Assembly (NCBI GenBank): GCA_944326225.1
Contig: CALVDI010000010.1
Span: 1-49,672, forward strand
Reading direction: 5' to 3'
Length of the DNA stretch: 49,672 nucleotides
Origin: an uncultured Bacteroidales bacterium
GTDB taxonomy: Bacteria > Bacteroidota > Bacteroidia > Bacteroidales > UBA932
Both the position numbers and the translations under genes were made by a program. This document shows positions 33,344 through 43,819 of the stretch, one piece after another; position 1 is the first letter of the stretch; each line of letters begins with the position of its first letter. Under the pieces are notes generated by a model. It made no database searches and was not told the origin of the DNA. It saw nothing but the letters and a program-made list of their open reading frames with translations.

Positions 33344-34312
33344 TCACTTTTTTTGAGTTAATCTCTGATCTGAGTTATGATTTCTACGCCAGAGCTGCCA
33401 GGAATTGAAAATATTCTGCCAGACGGCATAGGTTCCTGGAGCGAGGGATGATATGGGGTTAAGATACGTATATGCCATCCAGATGGCCAGAACACTGTTT
33501 TTCTGTCCAAGAGCCTGACCGGCGGTAATGGTATCTCCCAAAGCCTTGCCGGTACGCTTTCCGAACCAGAACTGAACTATGCAGGTCAGCAAAGCCGCGC
33601 CTGCTATCATCCACAGGACAGCTGCGGGAGCCGTGCTGTTGTGCATGGAGCGCACTGTCTGTCCGATAGCGAGCGCGAGAGCCACCGCCCAAAGATAGAA
33701 CGCGATGCCCGCACGGGCCTTGAAGAAATCATGAGCCTTGGGCCAGATGTACTTGAGCAGCACTGCCAGCAGGAACGGACATATCAGCAGCGGAAAAACC
33801 TTTGATAGAATCTTCAGAAATGCCGGGAAGAATCCCAATTCGGAATGAACTTCAATCAAGGGAAATACTACGGGCACGAACACCGCCGCCAGAAGATTGG
33901 ACATGAGATTATAAAGCGTAATACGCGCAGCACTGCCTCCCAGTTTGTCCGTGACGACTGCAGCGGCTGTGGCAGTCGGGCATATCAGACATACCATCGC
34001 CCCCTCGAATATCTCCCGATAGACCTCATTCATAGGCACCAATATCAGTACAGCCGCCATGACCAGCGCGGATACGGTCTGGAAAGCCAGTATGATCCAG
34101 TGCCACTTCGTCAGACGCAGGTCCTTCAGGTCTATCTTGCAGAAAGTCAGAAAAAGCTGTATGAAAATCAGCGACGGTGTCAGAATATCCACCGCCACCC
34201 ATACCGCAGGTTTAAGAGGTGTAAGACAACCGGCATAGTGAAACAGAAAATATCCGCCGGCACCTGCAGCCATGGCAATCGGAAGAGTCCAGTCCTTGAG
34301 AAAACGCATCAT
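33344..34312 (-). CDS. BASS-family (bile acid:sodium symporter-like) transporter
   Basis: The 322-residue integral membrane protein has about nine or ten hydrophobic segments and the BASS-like motifs LICPTATAAAVVTDKLGG and GQALGQKNSVLAIWMAYTYLNP. Bacterial BASS proteins move various organic anions with sodium; bile acid is not implied. Its ATG overlaps the thiN stop (ATGA), which suggests a substrate tied to thiamine, but this is inference only. Confidence 0.82.
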   Translation of the reverse strand: MMRFLKDWTLPIAMAAGAGGYFLFHYAGCLTPLKPAVWVAVDILTPSLIFIQLFLTFCKIDLKDLRLTKWHWIILAFQTVSALVMAAVLILVPMNEVYREIFEGAMVCLICPTATAAAVVTDKLGGSAARITLYNLMSNLLAAVFVPVVFPLIEVHSELGFFPAFLKILSKVFPLLICPFLLAVLLKYIWPKAHDFFKARAGIAFYLWAVALALAIGQTVRSMHNSTAPAAVLWMIAGAALLTCIVQFWFGKRTGKALGDTITAGQALGQKNSVLAIWMAYTYLNPISSLAPGTYAVWQNIFNSWQLWRRNHNSDQRLTQKK

Positions 34313-35016
34313 AGCAATGTCTCCGTCTCAAGTCTTCTGCCGTGCCATCCGGGCAGATACATCAGCGCCTTGGCCGGATGACTGAGCCTGAGCTCCACCC
34401 TGCCGCCTGAAGCCCTGTTCAACGTGGCCTTCCACCACATATCGAACCTGACATCCCCAGTAGGATACTCCAGTCCGGAACTGTCTATCCTGAGGTTCTG
34501 GTCAAAGGCGAATATGGAGACCGGCTGGCCGGCAGGGAGGCTGAACGCACATGAGTCCAGCACCGGCACGAACAGACCGTAATCAGTCATCATGGAAAGC
34601 CGCCCGGGAGTCCCGCAGGCAGACAGATACTGCGCGAAATCGGCCAGAAGCGATATATTGCCGAGCGTGTGGTCCTCGCGCTTGCCGGTAGCGCCGAATA
34701 CCGTTATGGAAAATTCCGGAATGTGCCGGCCCGTGCCTGTCCGGAGCAGAGCACAGACACACCGGAAAGCCTTGGAGAGATCATTGCTCTCCTGCTCCCC
34801 TATGTGAAACAGCTGGTCGGAAAGTTCATTCCTGACATCCTCTGGCAACGAGTCCATATCCCCCACCACAAACTCAGGCCTCCGGAATCTCATGAAAGAG
34901 GCCGCGGCACCGTCACAGCAGACCACCACGTCACAGGAGAGGAGGCAGTCCCTGACCTCGGCTTTCCCGGGGAAATCCCCGTCACACAATATCGCATAAG
35001 AAACAGACGGCCTCAT
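34309..35016 (-). CDS. thiN: Thiamine diphosphokinase
   Basis: ThiN transfers pyrophosphate from ATP to thiamine, giving the active cofactor. The 235-residue protein has the nucleotide-binding and metal motifs CCDGAAASF, VVGDMDSLP and EQESNDLSKAF. The C-terminal beta domain has LRIDSSGLEYP. It is three bases from the LptF/G-Fmt gene and overlaps the transporter gene. No TPP riboswitch precedes it. Confidence 0.92.
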   Translation of the reverse strand: MRPSVSYAILCDGDFPGKAEVRDCLLSCDVVVCCDGAAASFMRFRRPEFVVGDMDSLPEDVRNELSDQLFHIGEQESNDLSKAFRCVCALLRTGTGRHIPEFSITVFGATGKREDHTLGNISLLADFAQYLSACGTPGRLSMMTDYGLFVPVLDSCAFSLPAGQPVSIFAFDQNLRIDSSGLEYPTGDVRFDMWWKATLNRASGGRVELRLSHPAKALMYLPGWHGRRLETETLL

Positions 35017-35019
35017 CCT

Positions 35020-37449
35020 CTATCCCCTCCATCCTGCCAGGAAACTGGACGCAGGCATCATCTTTTTGCCGGGAGCCTGAAGTTCCTTCACAGACAATAT
35101 TCCCTCACCGCAACGGACCGCGAGCAGGGACCTGTGATCTGTATATACAACACCCGGAGCAGAGCTGACAAACTCCTCAGGAAGACCGTCTCCGCTTATA
35201 ATCTCAGTATCATAGATTTTAAGTTCCAGGTCCTGATCTCCCATACGCAGGAGGCCGTGAGCTCCCGGCTTCGGAGCCAGACCGCGCACCAGATTGTGTA
35301 TCCTCCCCGCACTGAGAGTCCAGTCAATCTCCCCTGTCTGACGGCTCAGCTTAGGTGCGGACATCCTCTCCGGCGTAAGCGACGAAGTATCCTGCGGCCT
35401 CGGCACGGCAGTACCGGATTCAATAGCATCCACAGTCCTGAGTACCAGAGCCGCCCCCTTGACCATCAGACGGTCATAAAGCCTGCCCACATTGTCATCA
35501 GGCAGTATTTCCTCCTCTTCCTGGAACAGAATAGAGCCCGTGTCCATATGCTCGTCCAGCAGGAAGGTGGTCACTCCGGTGAGCGTCTCCCCGTTGATCA
35601 CCGCCCAGTTGACAGGGGCCGCTCCGCGGTAAGCGGGAAGCAGGGAAGCATGGAGGTTGAATGTGCCCAGACGGGGCATGGACCATACAACCTTGGGCAG
35701 CATCCTGAATGCCACCACTACGAACATATCGGCCCCGAGAGCTTCCAGTTCTTTCAGGAAATCTGGATCCTTGAGAGACTCCGGCTGCAGCAGAGGCAGG
35801 GAATGTTCCTCGGCATACTGCTTCACCGGACTGCAGCCTATCTTCTGTCCCCTGCCAATCTTACGGTCAGGGACAGTCACCACGCCCAGGACATTGTATC
35901 CGCCGTCCACCAACGCCTTCAGAGACTCCACGGCAAATTCAGGCGTACCCATAAAGACTATTCCGGAGCGGACTTTACGGCTCAGGCTTCCGTCGGTTGT
36001 TCCTGTCTCTCGACGCTTTTTACTGGTGAATCTTGATAAGAACTTCTTGATCGGCAGCAGATATGTATCAAGATTGAACATGGACGAATCCTTTGTGGAT
36101 TTCCATGTCAGGAAAACACCTATCGGCAACAACACGACTGTCGAGATAAAAGCACCTGCTTCGGGAGAAATAACTCCATCTCTGGCCAACTTCTTGCCCG
36201 ATATGTCCACGACCCAGTACATCACGAAAAACAAGGCCGAGACTATCACCGGAGTACCCAGGCCGCCTTTCCTGATAATGGCTCCCAACGGGGCCCCTAT
36301 AAAGAAAAATATAAAGCAGGCAAATGAGAGCGTGAACTTCCTGAGCGACTCCAGATCTATCCTCCGGAGATAAAATGTGTACTGCTGTACCTCCCGGTCA
36401 TAACTCTGCATGGTCTGTATTGACTTCTGAACAGTACGTATAGCATCTTCGACAGCATCCAGTTCCCTTTGGGTATCCGCCCATTTCAATGTATCAAGAG
36501 GGAAATTCGTAACATACTCTCCTACATGTGCGGTATCCAGCTGCCTGGCAGAATTCATATAAAGGTCATATACAATAGCCGCTCTCTGCCTGTGTGCTGT
36601 CGTATCGTACAACGCGCCCAACGAATCCCTGTCATTATGAAGCTGCTGAAGATTGCGGGCCATGATATTATCGCCATATCTGGTCTCCTCTGATTTCTGA
36701 AAGGCATAGTTCTCCAGTTCAATAACTATCTCCTGCATATCAAAATCCACCTGCTGGAGCTTGTAGGTGGTATCTTTGGCTGTACGGGCATTGTCCTCCT
36801 CATATGACACTCCGTTGTACAGCGTGAACACCAGCGCCTTTTTGTCAGGAGTGGAGCGGATCATGCCCGAATCTGCCACGGCCAGGGAGATGTTGCCCTT
36901 ATTGTTGGTATGGTTGTACACCATGACTCCGTACATCATTCCTGTCTCCCTGTTGTTCGAGTTGACCCTAAGCGAATATCCGTCGATACCGTTGTAGAAT
37001 GTACCGGTGGGTATCTTGATCTCGTCCTTCGTCCTGGCGATATCGTACTGAAGAGTATATATCTTGTTATAAGCCAAAGGTATGAGATTGTTGGAAACAA
37101 AGAAAGCAGCGACACTGATGGCGAAAGCCACGAATATCAGCGGCAGAAATATCCTCTGCAGCGATATGCCTGCAGCCTTCATGGCCAGCAGCTCATTGTT
37201 CTCGCCCAGATTGCCGAATGTCATGATGGAGGCCAGCAGAGTGGCCAAAGGCATGGAGAGCGGCAGGATGGTCGCTGATCCCCATCCCAAAAACTCCATG
37301 ATGACCCAGAAACTCAGACCTTTTCCCACCAGTTCGTCGATATACAGCCACAGGAACTGCATCACCAGTATGAACACGGTGATGAAGAATGTCATCACGA
37401 ACGGTCCTAAAAAGGATTTCAATATGAAAAGGTCGAGTCTCTTCATCAT
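35020..37449 (-). CDS. fmt: In-frame fusion of an LptF/LptG-family permease and methionyl-tRNA formyltransferase
   Basis: The 809-residue frame contains two full-length proteins. Residues 1-455 are an LptF/G permease with three N-terminal helices, a periplasmic jellyroll-like domain and three C-terminal helices (FACFIFFFIGAPLGAIIRKG). Residues about 493-809 are methionyl-tRNA formyltransferase: GIVFMGTPEFAVESL, FNLHASLLPAYRGAAPVNWA (catalytic Asn and His), LLDEHMDTGSILF (catalytic Asp) and the C-terminal GEIDW. The linker has no stop and no plausible ATG, GTG or TTG start before the first Fmt strand. The permease C-terminus is cytosolic, so Fmt would sit on the membrane's inner face. Permeases of this type move lipopolysaccharide with LptBC. 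The join must be confirmed against assembly error. Confidence 0.9.
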   Translation of the reverse strand: MMKRLDLFILKSFLGPFVMTFFITVFILVMQFLWLYIDELVGKGLSFWVIMEFLGWGSATILPLSMPLATLLASIMTFGNLGENNELLAMKAAGISLQRIFLPLIFVAFAISVAAFFVSNNLIPLAYNKIYTLQYDIARTKDEIKIPTGTFYNGIDGYSLRVNSNNRETGMMYGVMVYNHTNNKGNISLAVADSGMIRSTPDKKALVFTLYNGVSYEEDNARTAKDTTYKLQQVDFDMQEIVIELENYAFQKSEETRYGDNIMARNLQQLHNDRDSLGALYDTTAHRQRAAIVYDLYMNSARQLDTAHVGEYVTNFPLDTLKWADTQRELDAVEDAIRTVQKSIQTMQSYDREVQQYTFYLRRIDLESLRKFTLSFACFIFFFIGAPLGAIIRKGGLGTPVIVSALFFVMYWVVDISGKKLARDGVISPEAGAFISTVVLLPIGVFLTWKSTKDSSMFNLDTYLLPIKKFLSRFTSKKRRETGTTDGSLSRKVRSGIVFMGTPEFAVESLKALVDGGYNVLGVVTVPDRKIGRGQKIGCSPVKQYAEEHSLPLLQPESLKDPDFLKELEALGADMFVVVAFRMLPKVVWSMPRLGTFNLHASLLPAYRGAAPVNWAVINGETLTGVTTFLLDEHMDTGSILFQEEEEILPDDNVGRLYDRLMVKGAALVLRTVDAIESGTAVPRPQDTSSLTPERMSAPKLSRQTGEIDWTLSAGRIHNLVRGLAPKPGAHGLLRMGDQDLELKIYDTEIISGDGLPEEFVSSAPGVVYTDHRSLLAVRCGEGILSVKELQAPGKKMMPASSFLAGWRG

Positions 37450-37465
37450 GCAATAGCGTATGTCG

Positions 37466-40093
37466 TCAGCCTATCTTATTGACGGATTCAATCATAGCTG
37501 TCAGAGCCGCCACAAGTCCGTCAGGATCCTTGCCTCCTGCGGTAGCCAGGAAGGGCTGACCGCCTCCACCGCCCTTGATGTGGGCGGCAGCGGCCTTCAC
37601 ATCCTTGCCGGCATGAGCTCCGGCAGCCACCAGGTCATCCGTGTACATCATAAGCAGCGAGGGCTTGCGGTCGGGGGTCATAATCGCGGCAACCATGGCT
37701 GCGCGTGTATTCTCCTTCCGCAGTTCAAAGGCCACTTCCTTAATGACATCGGGAGAATATACTCCGGTCAGGGAGAACAGACGCACTCCGGAAGGTGTCA
37801 TCTCGCTCTTTTCCGTCAGGTTCTTCTTGAGGGCCGCGGCTCTCTCACGTGCCACCTCCTCAAGGGAATGACGGAATGAATCATTCTCGGCCACTAGTTT
37901 CTTGATACCGGTGATGATATCCGGGGTATTCTCCAGGAAGGAGCGCACGGCGTTGATCTGGTCCTCGACTCCGTCGAAAAGATCCTCTACATAACTGCCG
38001 GTGACAGCCTGTATCCTGCGTACACCTGCCGCAACGGCCGACTCAGAGACTATTTTGAGCATACCGATACGGCCGGTCGAGGAAGTGTGGGTTCCTCCGC
38101 AGAGTTCCACCGAGTCTCCGAAGCGGATTACGCGCACCTTGTCCCCGTATTTTTCTCCGAAAAGAGCCATCGCCCCCATGTCCTTTGCCTCGGCTATGGG
38201 CACGTCCCGGAACTCCTGGCGAGGATAGTCCTCACGTATAAGACGGTTGACCATCCTCTCCACCTCGCGCAGCTTCTCAGGGGATATCTTCTCGTAGTGA
38301 GAGAAGTCAAAACGGAAATACGCGGGGCATACGTAGGAACCCTTCTGCTCTATGTGAGTACCCAGTACGGAGCGCAGGGCCTGGTGCAGCAGATGGGTGG
38401 CCGAATGGTTATTGGCCGTCTCCTGCCGTTTATGTGCGTCCACACAGGCGCGGAACACCGCCTCCGGCTCCGAAGGAATCCGATCCGCGATATGTATACT
38501 GAGATTGTTCTCCTTGACAGTATTGAGTATGGCCGTCTTCTCACCCGACAGCGAGATTATGGTTCCGCAGTCTCCGACCTGTCCACCGCTCTCGGCATAG
38601 AAGGGAGTACGGTCGAATACCAGCTGGTAGACCTCCTTGCCCTTGGTCTTGACGGTACGGTACTTGACTATACGCACATCTGCCTCCAGAGTGTCGTAAC
38701 CTACGAAAGAGTGCTCCTCTGTCTCGTCCAGCACCACCCAGTCACCGGCCTCCACTGCGGCGGCGTTGCGGGCCCTGGCCTTCTGCTTTCCCAGCTCGGC
38801 CTCAAACTCCTCCAGGTCGATGGCATATCCTTTCTCACGTGCTATCAGCTCACTCAGGTCAATGGGGAATCCGAAAGTATCGTAGAGCACAAATGCGTCC
38901 TTGCCGGATATGCGCCTGGTATCCGCATTGCGTTCCATTATGGTGTTAATCAAGCCTATTCCCTTGGCCAAAGTACGGAGGAACGCCTCTTCCTCCTCAC
39001 GGATTACATTCTCTATCAACGTCTGCTGGCGTCCCAGTTCAGGATAGGCGTCTCCCATGACATCCACCAGCACCGGTACCAGACGGCACAGGAAAGGCTC
39101 GGTGAATCCCAGGAAGGTATAACCGTAACGGACTGCCCTGCGCAGGATGCGCCGGATGACGTAACCGGCCTTGACATTGGAAGGCAGCTGGCCGTCAGCT
39201 ATAGAGAACGAGATGGCCCTGATGTGGTCCGCCACCACCCTCATGGCCACATCCACCTGCTCCGACTCCGCACCGTACTTGTGTCCGGACAGTTCAGCGA
39301 TACGGGAGATGATGTCCTGAAACATGTCTCCGTCGTAGTTGCTCTTGTTGCCGTTTACGGCCATAACCAGACGCTCGAAGCCCATGCCGGTATCCACATG
39401 CCTGTGCGGCAGGAGCTCCAGCGAGCCGTCCGCCTTGCGGTTATACTGGATAAACACCAGATTCCATATCTCGATGACCAGGGGATCGCTCTTGTTGACC
39501 AGCTCCCGGCCGGGCACGGCCTGTCTGTCCTTCTCGTCCCTGAGGTCGATATGTATCTCGCTGCACGGGCCGCACGGGCCTGTATCGCCCATCTCCCAGA
39601 AATTGTCCTTCTTGTTGCCGTAGAGGATACGGTCCTCGGGCAGATACTGTTTCCATATCTCCAGAGCCTCGGAGTCAGGGCCCAGGCCATCCTTGTCATA
39701 CCCCTCGAAAACAGTAGCATACAGCCTCTCCTTATCCAGTTTGTACACCTCGGTCAGAAGCTCCCATGCCCATGCAATCGCCTCTTTCTTGAAATAGTCC
39801 CCGAAACTCCAGTTGCCCAGCATCTCGAACATCGTATGATGGTAAGAGTCATGGCCCACTTCCTCCAGGTCATTGTGTTTGCCGCTCACTCTGAGACACT
39901 TCTGACTGTCCGCCACACGGGGATACAGTATGGGGGAATTGCCCAGGAACCAGTCCTTGAACTGATTCATCCCGGCATTGGTGAACATAAGCGTAGGATC
40001 TCCCTTCACGACCATAGGCGCGGAGGGAACTATCTTGTGACCCTTCGAGGCGAAGAAGTCCAGGAATTGCTGTCTAATCTCTTTTGAAGTCAT
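37466..40093 (-). CDS. alaS: Alanyl-tRNA synthetase
   Basis: The enzyme charges tRNA-Ala and edits Ser and Gly mistakes. The 875-residue protein has the class II core ([34 protein letters not shown]), the editing-site [24 protein letters not shown] and a C-terminal DHHA1-like domain ending [17 protein letters not shown] 40093 (MTSKE) is preferred over an upstream start ten codons earlier. It lies 16 bases before the LptF/G-Fmt gene, so two translation genes flank the permease part. Confidence 0.98.
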
Positions 40094-40120
40094 ATTAACA
40101 AACGGATCATTTGTAATTTG

Positions 40121-40128
40121 CAAATATA
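40121..40128 (-). promoter_or_regulatory. alaS promoter, -7 element
   Basis: TATATTTG on the minus strand matches TAnnTTTG, 27 bases before the alaS ATG, at the edge of the preceding permease gene. A -33 element is not evident. Confidence 0.45.
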
Positions 40129-40132
40129 TATA

Positions 40133-41233
40133 TTATTTCGGTGCCATACGGTAAAGTACCGCCGCAATCACCGCATACAGTATGTTAGGCAGCCACAGAG
40201 CCAGCCATGGCGGCAAAGTATCGGTAATCACGAACATCTGACTGAAACGCAGGAAAAGGATGTAGGAAAAGCTCAAGGCTATACCCACTCCAAGATTGAG
40301 GCCTATACCGCCGCGTCTCTTCTTGGAGGAAAGCGACACGCCTATGAGCGTCAGGATAAATGCCGAGAACGGCACTGCAAAACGGGTATGCTTCTCTATG
40401 AGAGAGTATTTGACCATACTGTCCCCTCTCATTCTCTGCATATCTATAAGCTCCTGCAGCTCATCATAATTGAGAGTCTCGACAGTATTCTCCCTCCTGT
40501 AGAAATCATCTATATTGAGATTGATAACCGTATCGAGCTGCTTGCCGAAAGTTATCCTCTGCTGCGACGTCGTATAGTCCCTCAGGGTATAGTTCTTAAG
40601 CCGCCATCCTCCGGTCGTGGAATCCCAGGCTGCGCTCTCGGCCGAGAGCTTTGATACCAGATGGCTCTCCCTTGTGCTTTCCAGAGTAAACTTATACGCA
40701 GTATTGTTCCACGTACTGAATGACTCCACGTAGACAAATTCACCGGGAGCTATCTGGTAATGGATATTGCGGTTGGTATTGTAGAATTTCTGTCCTTTTA
40801 TATACTGTTCCTCGAAGGCCAGTCTTTTCTTATTGGCATTGGGTATTACGAATAGATTGAGAGACAGACTCATCATCGCTATCAACAGAGCGGAAAGGAA
40901 ATACGGGTACATAAGCCTGCCGAAACTCACTCCTCCGGAAAGCATGGCTATGATCTCGCTGTTGCCGGCCAGTTTGGATGTGAAGAAGATAACGGTGATA
41001 AAGACGAACAGCGGACTGAACATATTGATGAAATACGGGATGAAGTTGAAGTAGTAGTCCACTACAATCGCCCTCAGAGGAGCCTCTTTATCCACGAAGT
41101 CATCGATCTTCTCGCTTATATCGAAGATTATCACTATCACGATGATAAGCAGCAGAGCCACAAAGAACGTTCCTATGAACTTCCTTATGATATACCTGTC
41201 GAGAAGCCTTATCCTGAATGTATTGAGATTCAT
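40133..41233 (-). CDS. LptF/LptG-family lipopolysaccharide export permease
   Basis: The 366-residue protein starts with LLDRYIIRKFIGTFF and has three N-terminal helices, a periplasmic beta domain, and three C-terminal helices with GVSLSSKKRRGGIGLNLG. It should pair with the permease part of the fused gene at 35020-37449 as LptF plus LptG, next to an LptB ATPase not found here. The tgt-permease adjacency is, as far as I know, common in Bacteroidota. Confidence 0.92.
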   Translation of the reverse strand: MNLNTFRIRLLDRYIIRKFIGTFFVALLLIIVIVIIFDISEKIDDFVDKEAPLRAIVVDYYFNFIPYFINMFSPLFVFITVIFFTSKLAGNSEIIAMLSGGVSFGRLMYPYFLSALLIAMMSLSLNLFVIPNANKKRLAFEEQYIKGQKFYNTNRNIHYQIAPGEFVYVESFSTWNNTAYKFTLESTRESHLVSKLSAESAAWDSTTGGWRLKNYTLRDYTTSQQRITFGKQLDTVINLNIDDFYRRENTVETLNYDELQELIDMQRMRGDSMVKYSLIEKHTRFAVPFSAFILTLIGVSLSSKKRRGGIGLNLGVGIALSFSYILFLRFSQMFVITDTLPPWLALWLPNILYAVIAAVLYRMAPK

Positions 41234-41242
41234 CTACAAATG

Positions 41243-42373
41243 TTATAAGCGGTTCTGCAATTTCTTTACTGCGGCTTCTTTCCACGGAAGAAAGTCTCCT
41301 GCCTCGATATGAAGGCGGGCCTGCGTCACCACATCGAGGTAGAAGGCCAGGTTGTGCTCGCTGGCAATCTGGGCCGCCAGCATCTCGCCGGCGATGAACA
41401 GATGCCGCAGATAAGCCTTGGTGTAGGCGGTGTCCACAAAGGACGTGCCATAAGGGTCAATCGGGGAGAAATCCCTCTCCCACTTCTTGTTGCGCATGTT
41501 CATCCGCCCTTCCCAGGTGAACAGCATCCCGTTGCGGCCGTTGCGGGTGGGCATCACGCAGTCGAACATGTCGATGCCCCGGGCTATGCCTTCCAGCAGA
41601 TTCTCGGGAGTACCGACTCCCATCAGGTAACGCGGCCTGTCCTTGGGCAGGACAGGGTGCACCGCCTCTATCATCTCATACATCACCTCGGTAGGCTCTC
41701 CCACAGACAGTCCGCCTATGGCGTAACCCTCGCAGTCATACGAGGCCACATTCTCGGCGGCCTCCACTCTCAGGTCGGGATAGACACAGCCCTGCACTAT
41801 GGGGAAAAATGCCTGTGAATAACCGTAAAGCGGCTCTGTCTCCCGGAAGCGGGCAATGCCTCTCCTAAGCCACTGCTTGGTCAGATCCAGGGACTTGCGG
41901 GCATAGTTGCGGTCGGCGTCACCGGGGGTGCACTCATCGAGGGCCATGATGATGTCGGCCCCGATGATGCGCTGGGTGTCCACGTTGTTCTCAGGGGTGA
42001 AGATGTGGGCCGAGCCGTCGATGTGCGAGCGGAACGTGCAGCCCTCGGGCGTAAGCTTGCGGCTGTCAGCCAGGGAAAATACCTGGAATCCGCCGCTGTC
42101 GGTCAGTATCGGGCGGTCCCATCCGGCGAACCTGTGCAGACCTCCGGCCATGCGCAGGGTCTCCAGGCCGGGACGCAGATACAGATGATAGGTATTGCCC
42201 AGAATGATCTGCGCTCCGATGTCGCCTTTCAGGTCCCGGTGATATACACCCTTGACAGAACCGACAGTCCCCACCGGCATGAAGATCGGTGTCTCTATCG
42301 TCCCGTGGTCTGTCTCAATCCTGCCTCTGCGGGCATTGGACTGCGGATCTGTCTTAAGCAACGTGAATCTCAT
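41243..42373 (-). CDS. tgt: tRNA-guanine transglycosylase (zinc cysteines absent)
   Basis: Tgt swaps guanine-34 for the queuosine precursor in GUN tRNAs. The 376-residue protein has the substrate motif LTDSGGFQVFSL, GLSVGEP, YLMGVGTPENLLEGI and the nucleophile segment DMFDCVMPTRNGRNG. ATG 42373 (MRFTL) is chosen over one ten codons upstream. The usual zinc site C-x-C-x2-C before YLRHL is here GTSFVD, so the three cysteines are missing, while the later His (HNLAFY) is kept. It ends nine bases before the permease gene. Confidence 0.95.
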   Translation of the reverse strand: MRFTLLKTDPQSNARRGRIETDHGTIETPIFMPVGTVGSVKGVYHRDLKGDIGAQIILGNTYHLYLRPGLETLRMAGGLHRFAGWDRPILTDSGGFQVFSLADSRKLTPEGCTFRSHIDGSAHIFTPENNVDTQRIIGADIIMALDECTPGDADRNYARKSLDLTKQWLRRGIARFRETEPLYGYSQAFFPIVQGCVYPDLRVEAAENVASYDCEGYAIGGLSVGEPTEVMYEMIEAVHPVLPKDRPRYLMGVGTPENLLEGIARGIDMFDCVMPTRNGRNGMLFTWEGRMNMRNKKWERDFSPIDPYGTSFVDTAYTKAYLRHLFIAGEMLAAQIASEHNLAFYLDVVTQARLHIEAGDFLPWKEAAVKKLQNRL

Positions 42374-42377
42374 CAGG

Positions 42378-43160
42378 TCATTCCCTCCAGAACTCTGTCT
42401 CACCCATATAGTTTACCGTAACCTCAGTACCGGACATAGCCGGAGACAGTCTTACTTCTATGTCCTCAGAGCGTTCCATCACCCCGAATATATCCATATG
42501 AAGATTGAATCCACCGTTGAAGAAATGGAATAAGGGTCCGCGGCTGAGCACCGCCATCGTCGGCTCCGCTGTCGAGAAAGCGACTTCCACCACGGTATTT
42601 CCTTCCCGGCTGGAAGTATGCTCCGTATAATCGCCATCAACGGTCACCCCATATACATAACCGTAATCGCACGAATCGGCAAGAGCCACATGCATCTCCA
42701 TGGCATTCAAGGAATAGGGTGCATCCAGCCTGGTCGTCTGAAGATCCACGCTCACATCCCACCCATCCGGGCCGGTACAGGAGACTGCTGCCACTACCCC
42801 ATTGAAAGTACATTCCCAGACAGCCCCTTCGTCGAGAATGGAATTACCGTCGAATACAAACTCGCCCCGTCCATCGGCAAGAACGCATTTATCGTCGTAA
42901 AGACGCACCTTATAGTCAGGGAAATACATATCCTCAAGCTCATATCTTCCATACTGGTCGGCTTTCACGTACATATCCACCTTCAAAGCCCGGTCCAGTA
43001 CGGAAAGAACGGGAGAGAGCACACGGTCTCCGGTAACGCAATAGACGTAGTAAGCCTCCTCGACAACATTGACATACTTCTCCTCCGAACTGTCCACCTT
43101 GCATCCAGTCACTGTCATTAGAACAGCTGCCGCCACCCATATATTTATAACATTCTTCAT
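42378..43160 (-). CDS. Hypothetical lipoprotein
   Basis: The 260-residue protein has a lipoprotein signal with lipobox VTGC (Cys20) followed by KVDSSEEK. The remainder looks beta-rich, with YYVYCVTGD, VDMYVKADQYGRYELED and RSEDIEVRLSP. I do not recognise the family. It is four bases from tgt and 11 bases after an outer-membrane beta-barrel gene, so it may work with that protein at the outer membrane. Confidence 0.7.
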   Translation of the reverse strand: MKNVINIWVAAAVLMTVTGCKVDSSEEKYVNVVEEAYYVYCVTGDRVLSPVLSVLDRALKVDMYVKADQYGRYELEDMYFPDYKVRLYDDKCVLADGRGEFVFDGNSILDEGAVWECTFNGVVAAVSCTGPDGWDVSVDLQTTRLDAPYSLNAMEMHVALADSCDYGYVYGVTVDGDYTEHTSSREGNTVVEVAFSTAEPTMAVLSRGPLFHFFNGGFNLHMDIFGVMERSEDIEVRLSPAMSGTEVTVNYMGETEFWRE

Positions 43161-43171
43161 GATTCCAGGTT

Positions 43172-43819
43172 TTAGAATTTATATCCGATTCCCAGCGAGA
43201 ATGTGCCGGTATTGCCCAATGAAACCTCCGCTATGCCGTAGACAAATGTTCCGACAGTGATGCCTATGGGCGTCAGCGCAAATGCCGGGAGCAAAGTCAT
43301 GGATGTACTGTGATTCCATGTCTCGGTCAGGAAAGAGACTCCAAGACCGATGCCGGAATACAGCCGTACAAGATCGGTATGTACCCACACAAACCTGACA
43401 TAAGGCATGACGGATACCTGATTGTCATTGCTCTTGAAAGCCAGATCGCCGGTATATTTATCAAAATAATCACGGTAGTATCCGGAATAAGTCACCACTC
43501 CGGAAAGCTCGAACCACTTACGGAAACGATACGTATATGTCAGTCCTACGGCCCCCGACAGATAACCGTCTCCACCGTAATACCTGCTGTCGGCTATCTC
43601 ACCGGCAATGGTTCCATAGCCATGGAAACCGTAGTCTCCGTCGATACCATGACTCAGTGTAACCTCGTCTAAAGGCATGGCTCCCCAGGTAAGCCGGAGC
43701 TCGCTGCCCTGCCAGAACCTGAATTCATTTCTATCTTTGGCAGAAATATCGGCGATACTTCCAGATGCAAGCATCAGAAATACCGCCGATATCAATATTC
43801 TGGACATATGTCTTCTCAT
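43172..43819 (-). CDS. Predicted outer-membrane beta-barrel protein
   Basis: The 215-residue protein has a signal peptide (ILISAVFLMLASGSIADISA) and alternating polar/hydrophobic strands rich in Tyr and Gly. It ends in Phe (TFSLGIGYKF), the usual C-terminal signature for outer-membrane insertion. It is a small barrel of perhaps eight to ten strands. The substrate or function is unknown. It is probably co-transcribed with the lipoprotein at 42378. Confidence 0.78.
   Translation of the reverse strand: MRRHMSRILISAVFLMLASGSIADISAKDRNEFRFWQGSELRLTWGAMPLDEVTLSHGIDGDYGFHGYGTIAGEIADSRYYGGDGYLSGAVGLTYTYRFRKWFELSGVVTYSGYYRDYFDKYTGDLAFKSNDNQVSVMPYVRFVWVHTDLVRLYSGIGLGVSFLTETWNHSTSMTLLPAFALTPIGITVGTFVYGIAEVSLGNTGTFSLGIGYKF

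Follow-up and report, generated by a model that had tools for sequence, protein, structure and literature searches.

We found that an uncultured Bacteroidales bacterium of the GTDB family UBA932 carries a single gene in which a permease of the LptF/LptG family runs in frame into a complete methionyl-tRNA formyltransferase (Fmt). The gene lies on the minus strand of contig CALVDI010000010.1, of which a stretch of 49,672 nucleotides (hereafter, the window) was analyzed. It is a genuine lptF-fmt fusion, complete at both halves, and it probably yields one polypeptide, in which an LptF-type subunit of the LptB2FG exporter carries, on a C-terminal tail in the cytosol, the only Fmt that we found in this genome. 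A first-pass annotation, made from the letters of the DNA alone, had described one open frame encoding a permease and then an Fmt. Its coordinates, strand and length proved exact, no internal stop is present, and both halves are complete as judged by Pfam and by the NCBIfam fmt cut-off (Table 1). LptF_LptG (E-value 5.4e-75), Formyl_trans_N (1.4e-35) and Formyl_trans_C (1.5e-21) were the only Pfam domains detected on the fusion, with no dehydrogenase or decarboxylase domain of the ArnA type among them. Both halves are textbook proteins, but searches for the two together with fusion terms returned no paper describing an lptF-fmt fusion. A bacterium without Fmt has been reported (PMC4378268), gene fusions and overlapping genes have been treated in general (PMC12803068, PMC3711429; the term formyltransferase does not occur in the available parts of either), and a further paper concerns, in its available part, mitochondria (PMC8017971).

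Table 1. Coordinates of the lptF::fmt fusion gene, its parts and its neighbors in the window.
Feature	Position	Strand	Basis and remarks
lptF::fmt fusion gene	35020..37449	-	809 codons, ATG start; same in-frame architecture in 108 family genomes
LptF/LptG-family permease domain, nearer LptF	36100..37425	-	residues 9-450; Pfam PF03739, NCBIfam
Linker	35965..36084	-	residues 456-495; no in-frame stop; no ATG/GTG/TTG past M457
Fmt catalytic domain, Formyl_trans_N	35440..35961	-	residues 497-670; Pfam, NCBIfam
Fmt C-terminal domain, Formyl_trans_C	35032..35352	-	residues 700-806; Pfam PF02911
ATG of M500 in FMGTPEF	35950..35952	-	within first Fmt strand; start not usable
Thiamine pyrophosphokinase (TPK)	34309..35016	-	directly downstream of fusion; NCBIfam TIGR01378
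alaS	37466..40123	-	directly upstream of fusion; NCBIfam alaS, 867 bits
Second LptF/LptG permease, nearer LptG, not fused	40133..41233	-	Pfam; NCBIfam LptG 176 vs LptF 139 bits
tgt, queuine tRNA-ribosyltransferase	41243..42403	-	Pfam TGT, E 9.3e-151

The permease half matched PF03739 over profile positions 3-353 of 353 with 253 bits, above the gathering score. Against the NCBIfam models it reached 148.3 of 230 bits for LptF and 102.9 of 240 bits for LptG; since both scores fall below the equivalog cut-offs, we call it a PF03739 permease nearer LptF and not a proven LptF. Its unfused LptG-like partner also missed both cut-offs, and these two genes gave the only PF03739 matches in the assembly. 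When compared with the LptF of LptB2FG (PF03739; 5X5Y), the fusion shares the whole permease domain, has an LptG-like partner two genes upstream, and belongs to a genome that encodes LpxC and LptC, but it differs in its C-terminal enzyme, in two long predicted helices (residues 267-310 and 326-391) and in its sub-cut-off NCBIfam scores. Membership in the exporter, like membrane topology, would follow from what is known of the family. We take this family to have six transmembrane helices and a cytosolic C-terminus, which agrees with the layout of the fusion, and the structure model is consistent with a cytosolic permease C-terminus after six transmembrane helices. The segment holding the two long helices (residues 267-391) is encoded at 36277-36651, and the second of them seems to enter a membrane helix. 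Permeases of genera g6, g7, g19 and g20, which are unfused, mostly lie in frames of 609-681 codons; those of loci L070, L078, L082 and L086 extend about 140-170 residues past their matched part, and the extension is not Fmt.

The Fmt half passed the equivalog cut-off of the NCBIfam fmt model TIGR00460 (235.8 vs 201.5 bits). As the first-pass annotation had stated, its catalytic residues are intact, with NLHASLLP, RGAAP and DTG all in the window protein; the Asn-His and Asp motifs align to 1fmt. RGAAP and DTG are kept in all 110 fused rows tested, and the pattern NLH[AS][AS]xLP in 109, the remaining row reading NLHTALLP. The PDRxxGRGxK loop of E. coli Fmt, which we take to contact the tRNA, also aligns with the window Fmt, and the strict pattern PDRxxGRG is found in 106/110 fused and 26/27 unfused rows; two looser Fmt patterns are found in 100/110 and 99/110 fused rows. 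A search of the window assembly for a second Fmt came up empty, although at 83% completeness one could be missing; apart from the fusion, Formyl_trans_N matched just one frame, which is 203 codons long and appears to be PurN-like. Fused genomes of the family sample described below gave a single Fmt match each at E<=1e-20, except G082, G179 and G184, in which two partial matches look like one gene split across contigs. Relative to Fmt as known from TIGR00460 and the E. coli structures 1FMT/2FMT, the window protein has both domains, the motifs, the loop and the fold in the only copy found, but here they are appended to the C-terminal end of an integral membrane protein and have no usable start codon of their own. 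Normal catalysis would be expected from family knowledge.

ArnA is a formyltransferase fused to a dehydrogenase that acts in lipid A modification. Like the window protein, it is a two-part, LPS-linked protein with an Fmt-type domain, and both ArnA and the sugar N-formyltransferases are fold relatives of Fmt. A repurposed Fmt half that formylates an LPS sugar, in the manner of ArnA or the O-antigen N-formyltransferases, would explain the location on an exporter. We regard this as very improbable, as the sequence is far more like Fmt than ArnA (1fmt, E 6.2e-58; ArnA, E 2.1e-27), passes the fmt cut-off, aligns over the conserved PDRxxGRGxK loop, and is the sole Fmt candidate found while a deformylase gene is present in the genome. 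In ArnA, the formyltransferase is N-terminal and uses a sugar nucleotide, whereas the partner in the fusion is a permease.

An AlphaFold2 model of the fusion (48 rows; mean pLDDT 79.7, pTM 0.46) contains a folded permease and a folded Fmt, the latter beginning with a strand at residues 496-501, and between them a low-confidence linker with pLDDT below 50 at residues 455-461 and 474-492 (as also at 303-305). Given the pTM of 0.46, no claim is made on the relative placement of the halves. The top Foldseek match was 2fmt_A (E 2.3e-24, target TM 0.86). Chain 5x5y_F, presumably LptF, ranked 45th as a loose match to the permease half (E 8.1e-12, target TM 0.57, rmsd 15.2).

The first-pass annotation had also raised the prospect that all close relatives keep two separate genes, and this did not hold. 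A strong Fmt match was obtained in 18 of the 19 genomes of the window's genus, each time within a fused frame (814-831 codons), and the 17 besides the window genome range from 94% down to 56% identity; the 19th genome (G003) gave only a weak Fmt match, in a 217-codon frame. Across the family, we sampled 249 genomes, 18 of which lacked an Fmt match at E<=1e-20. From the 231 left we dropped G226 and G232, which are split between contigs (in G226 the pieces may well stem from a fused gene), and 108 of the remaining 229 classifiable genomes are fused in frame and 121 unfused. All 108 fused loci were read on the DNA (18 + 14 + 76), although some end at contig edges. For 118 of the 121 unfused genomes, the permease was found apart from the frame of Fmt (25 + 77 + 16 genomes); the other three (G095, G169 and G071), counted as unfused, gave no permease match at E<=1e-40. 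Two genomes, G242 and G248, were classified from the permease frame alone. The fusion occurs in nine genera, in seven of which every classified genome has it (g1, g3, g5, g14, g15, g16 and g22, with g3 and g5 being one genome each), while g2 and g23 are mixed.

Beyond the family, the fusion was not seen among the matches listed. In an order-wide sample (159 genomes, 152 with a match, the two lowest unlisted), the listed fused genomes G000, G014 and G039 all belong to UBA932, and in a phylum-wide sample (158 genomes, 157 with a match, the seven lowest unlisted) only the window genome is fused among those listed, with 523 as the largest other frame. A scan of named genomes gave 79 fused loci (78 plus L181) and one unfused locus (L182) among the best 80, a set chosen by likeness to fused proteins and from genomes that partly overlap the family sample. 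It includes contigs of Candidatus Cryptobacteroides and Candidatus Cacconaster; Cryptobacteroides is assigned to GTDB family UBA932 (PMC8035907, in its available part). The window comes from a metagenome assembly that is 83% complete, and a stop codon or a base could have been lost in sequencing or assembly. Since 108 of the 229 family genomes that could be classified, and 79 of the best 80 named loci, share the fusion, such an artefact has a vanishingly small probability, and we rejected it on the conservation of the fusion in genus and family.

We found that the linker offers no usable start for fmt, as had been claimed. From M457 (36081-36079), which sits in the permease tail, to M500, 42 codons pass without an in-frame ATG, GTG or TTG, and a CTG codon stands at L489. 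The first ATG on the Fmt side is indeed that of M500, within FMGTPEF; because the first Fmt strand spans residues 496-501 in the model, starting there would remove most of the strand. At the position of M500, L181 has F and L239 has L; both of these loci are fused but were excluded from the junction counts because they lack the exact search motif.

These observations bear on whether Fmt could in practice exist on its own, through internal initiation or through cleavage of the linker, and so hold no lasting membrane tether. Fused junctions differ in this respect: among 159 distinct junctions, which are related sequences and not independent trials, 105 contain at least one ATG, GTG or TTG between codons -3 and -20 ahead of MGTPEF and 54, the window included, have none (28 of them none back to -30), whereas all 27 unfused rows have a start candidate in -3 to -15. 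A recurrent ATG at -11, seen in 30 of 101 rows, may be the ancestral fmt start. A free Fmt alongside the fusion is therefore possible in the species with the 105 start-bearing junctions, and the predicted disorder of the linker would also suit a separate Fmt. Yet position x of a 'DGxLSR' motif within the genus is M, S, A, T, F, V or L, a variation that fits a residue and not a start codon, and no conserved cleavage motif was seen in the linkers by eye. Moreover, since the lptF stop codon is absent, ribosomes translating lptF must continue into fmt. Altogether, we consider an effectively separate Fmt rather unlikely.

Substitutions in the linker argue for the joined product. In 56 non-overlapping close fused pairs, in-frame pN/pS was 0.28 at codons -30 to -15 and 0.27 at -14 to -5, while reading the linker in its two alternative frames gave 1.32 and 1.35; the permease end gave 0.13 and Fmt 0.10, and a smaller set of 26 pairs gave 0.32 for the linker. 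With an in-frame ratio of about 0.28 and values above 1.3 elsewhere, selection acts on the linker as a protein sequence read in the fused frame, though the stretch includes some permease tail, and in loci with an internal start the constraint just ahead of Fmt could reflect an Fmt that begins there. Thus the fused polypeptide is very probably made. The linker is also basic, with a mean of 8.1 K/R and 1.1 D/E per 27 residues in fused rows.

To ask how the fusion arose, we compared fused and unfused loci. Among the unfused rows with both genes in view, lptF and fmt are adjacent in 21 of 23, and in different frames in 20 of these 21; the remaining two rows (g6 and g7) have the genes apart, and in genomes of g8, g19 and g24 the permease and Fmt matches fall on different contigs. 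In the mixed genus g23, the junctions of fused G075 and unfused G040 differ by one gap of 15 nt and another of 4 nt, the shorter one lying just ahead of the G040 lptF stop, and the G075 permease frame continues into Fmt. The unfused fmt of G040 (L063) has no ATG ahead of the first strand, and a TTG at the junction is its likely start. The fusion would then have originated within one Bacteroidales family, from a gene string alaS-lptF-fmt-TPK in which lptF and fmt were already neighbors and often overlapped in another frame; small indels at the junction can delete the lptF stop and align the two frames. 'Rosetta stone' fusions are joined adjacent operon genes, and the present case resembles them in that two neighbors merged across a short junction and descendants kept the merged gene, but the lptF and fmt partners are not known to be functionally linked. 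To our knowledge, no link between an LPS export permease and Fmt has been described.

We built a quick tree, without bootstrap, from LptF, Fmt and, where present (47 of 76 rows), AlaS, and named its groups only once a first tree had been seen. Fused rows fall in three places: on the Cryptobacteroides/Cacconaster side, in the genus of the window together with G019, and at G075. The fewest state changes on this tree are four, or three if G019 groups with the window's genus, an arrangement that fits at least equally well (AU p 0.64). A single clade of all fused rows was rejected (AU p 1.4e-35), as was a single clade without G075 (p 3e-7) or without both G075 and G019 (p 2.6e-6). At least two separate fusions is by far the simplest reading; a single old fusion that was later split in some lineages, with G075 as a further event, would cost about the same as three or four gains.

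The coding-strand order in the window is tgt, lptG-like, alaS, lptF::fmt, TPK, an SBF-like transporter and M23 peptidases. We used the two other tight junctions of the fusion gene as control pairs, in a set in which 111 of 134 rows are fused, a proportion that contains repeats and loci picked for likeness to fused proteins and is not a frequency. Neither pair was ever joined: none of 110 rows has alaS fused to lptF (the two are adjacent in 101, and 50 of these share a frame), and none of 99 has fmt fused to TPK (adjacent in 94, with a shared frame in 19), zeros that are not independent trials, as the rows share ancestry with the fused loci and include some repeats. Tight packing alone therefore does not yield fusions here, and the lptF-fmt pair is special, either because joining a cytosolic tail to a soluble enzyme is better tolerated or because it is favored.

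If the join is favored, the tether would connect translation initiation with growth of the envelope, for instance if fMet-tRNA were produced close to ribosomes engaged at the membrane, or if the supply of formyl-folate were sensed. When one pair of genes is fused in several lineages, this is classically read as a hint that the partners are linked in function or stoichiometry, and here the fused lineages do not form one clade, the fusion is retained over a wide divergence, the control pairs stay unfused, and tgt, alaS and fmt share a gene string with both Lpt permeases. However, 121 of the 229 classifiable family genomes manage without the fusion and the control pairs share ancestry with fused loci. 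A fused gene can split again only by gaining a stop as well as a start, so that its persistence is not in itself evidence of selection. Such a functional coupling is the adaptive form of the single-polypeptide explanation, with which its probability overlaps, and we hold it to be doubtful. A bolder account, resting on the recurrence of the fusion and the contrast with control pairs, is somewhat less probable again: all initiator-tRNA formylation would take place at the LPS exporter, on its cytosolic side, and a repeatedly favored tether would couple outer-membrane biogenesis to translation initiation.

For the single polypeptide that we prefer, the tether is most likely tolerated, fixing stoichiometry and co-translation, rather than a regulatory device, and the simplest account is a harmless join of neighboring, often overlapping genes whose products are made one to one. 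By analogy with the two families, a protein of about 90 kDa would span the inner membrane with six helices and end in the cytosol, where the flexible, basic linker would let Fmt work as a normal enzyme while anchored to the exporter. Initiator Met-tRNA would then be formylated at the membrane, unless the fusion is cleaved. If the tether is real, the cellular site of initiator-tRNA formylation becomes testable in widespread, mostly uncultured gut and rumen bacteria. Annotation may label the 800-residue product by one half only.

Further features of the region are of note. Three tRNA enzymes (tgt, alaS and fmt) are grouped with both LPS export permeases in the string at 35020-42403. The SBF-like gene, of the bile acid:sodium symporter family, occupies 33344-34312, between TPK and the M23 peptidases; in loci L017 and L019-L022 of the genus, the next match past TPK is M23. 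A frame at 43172-43819 gave a weak, sub-cut-off match to HEPN_AbiA_CTD (21.6 of 27 bits).
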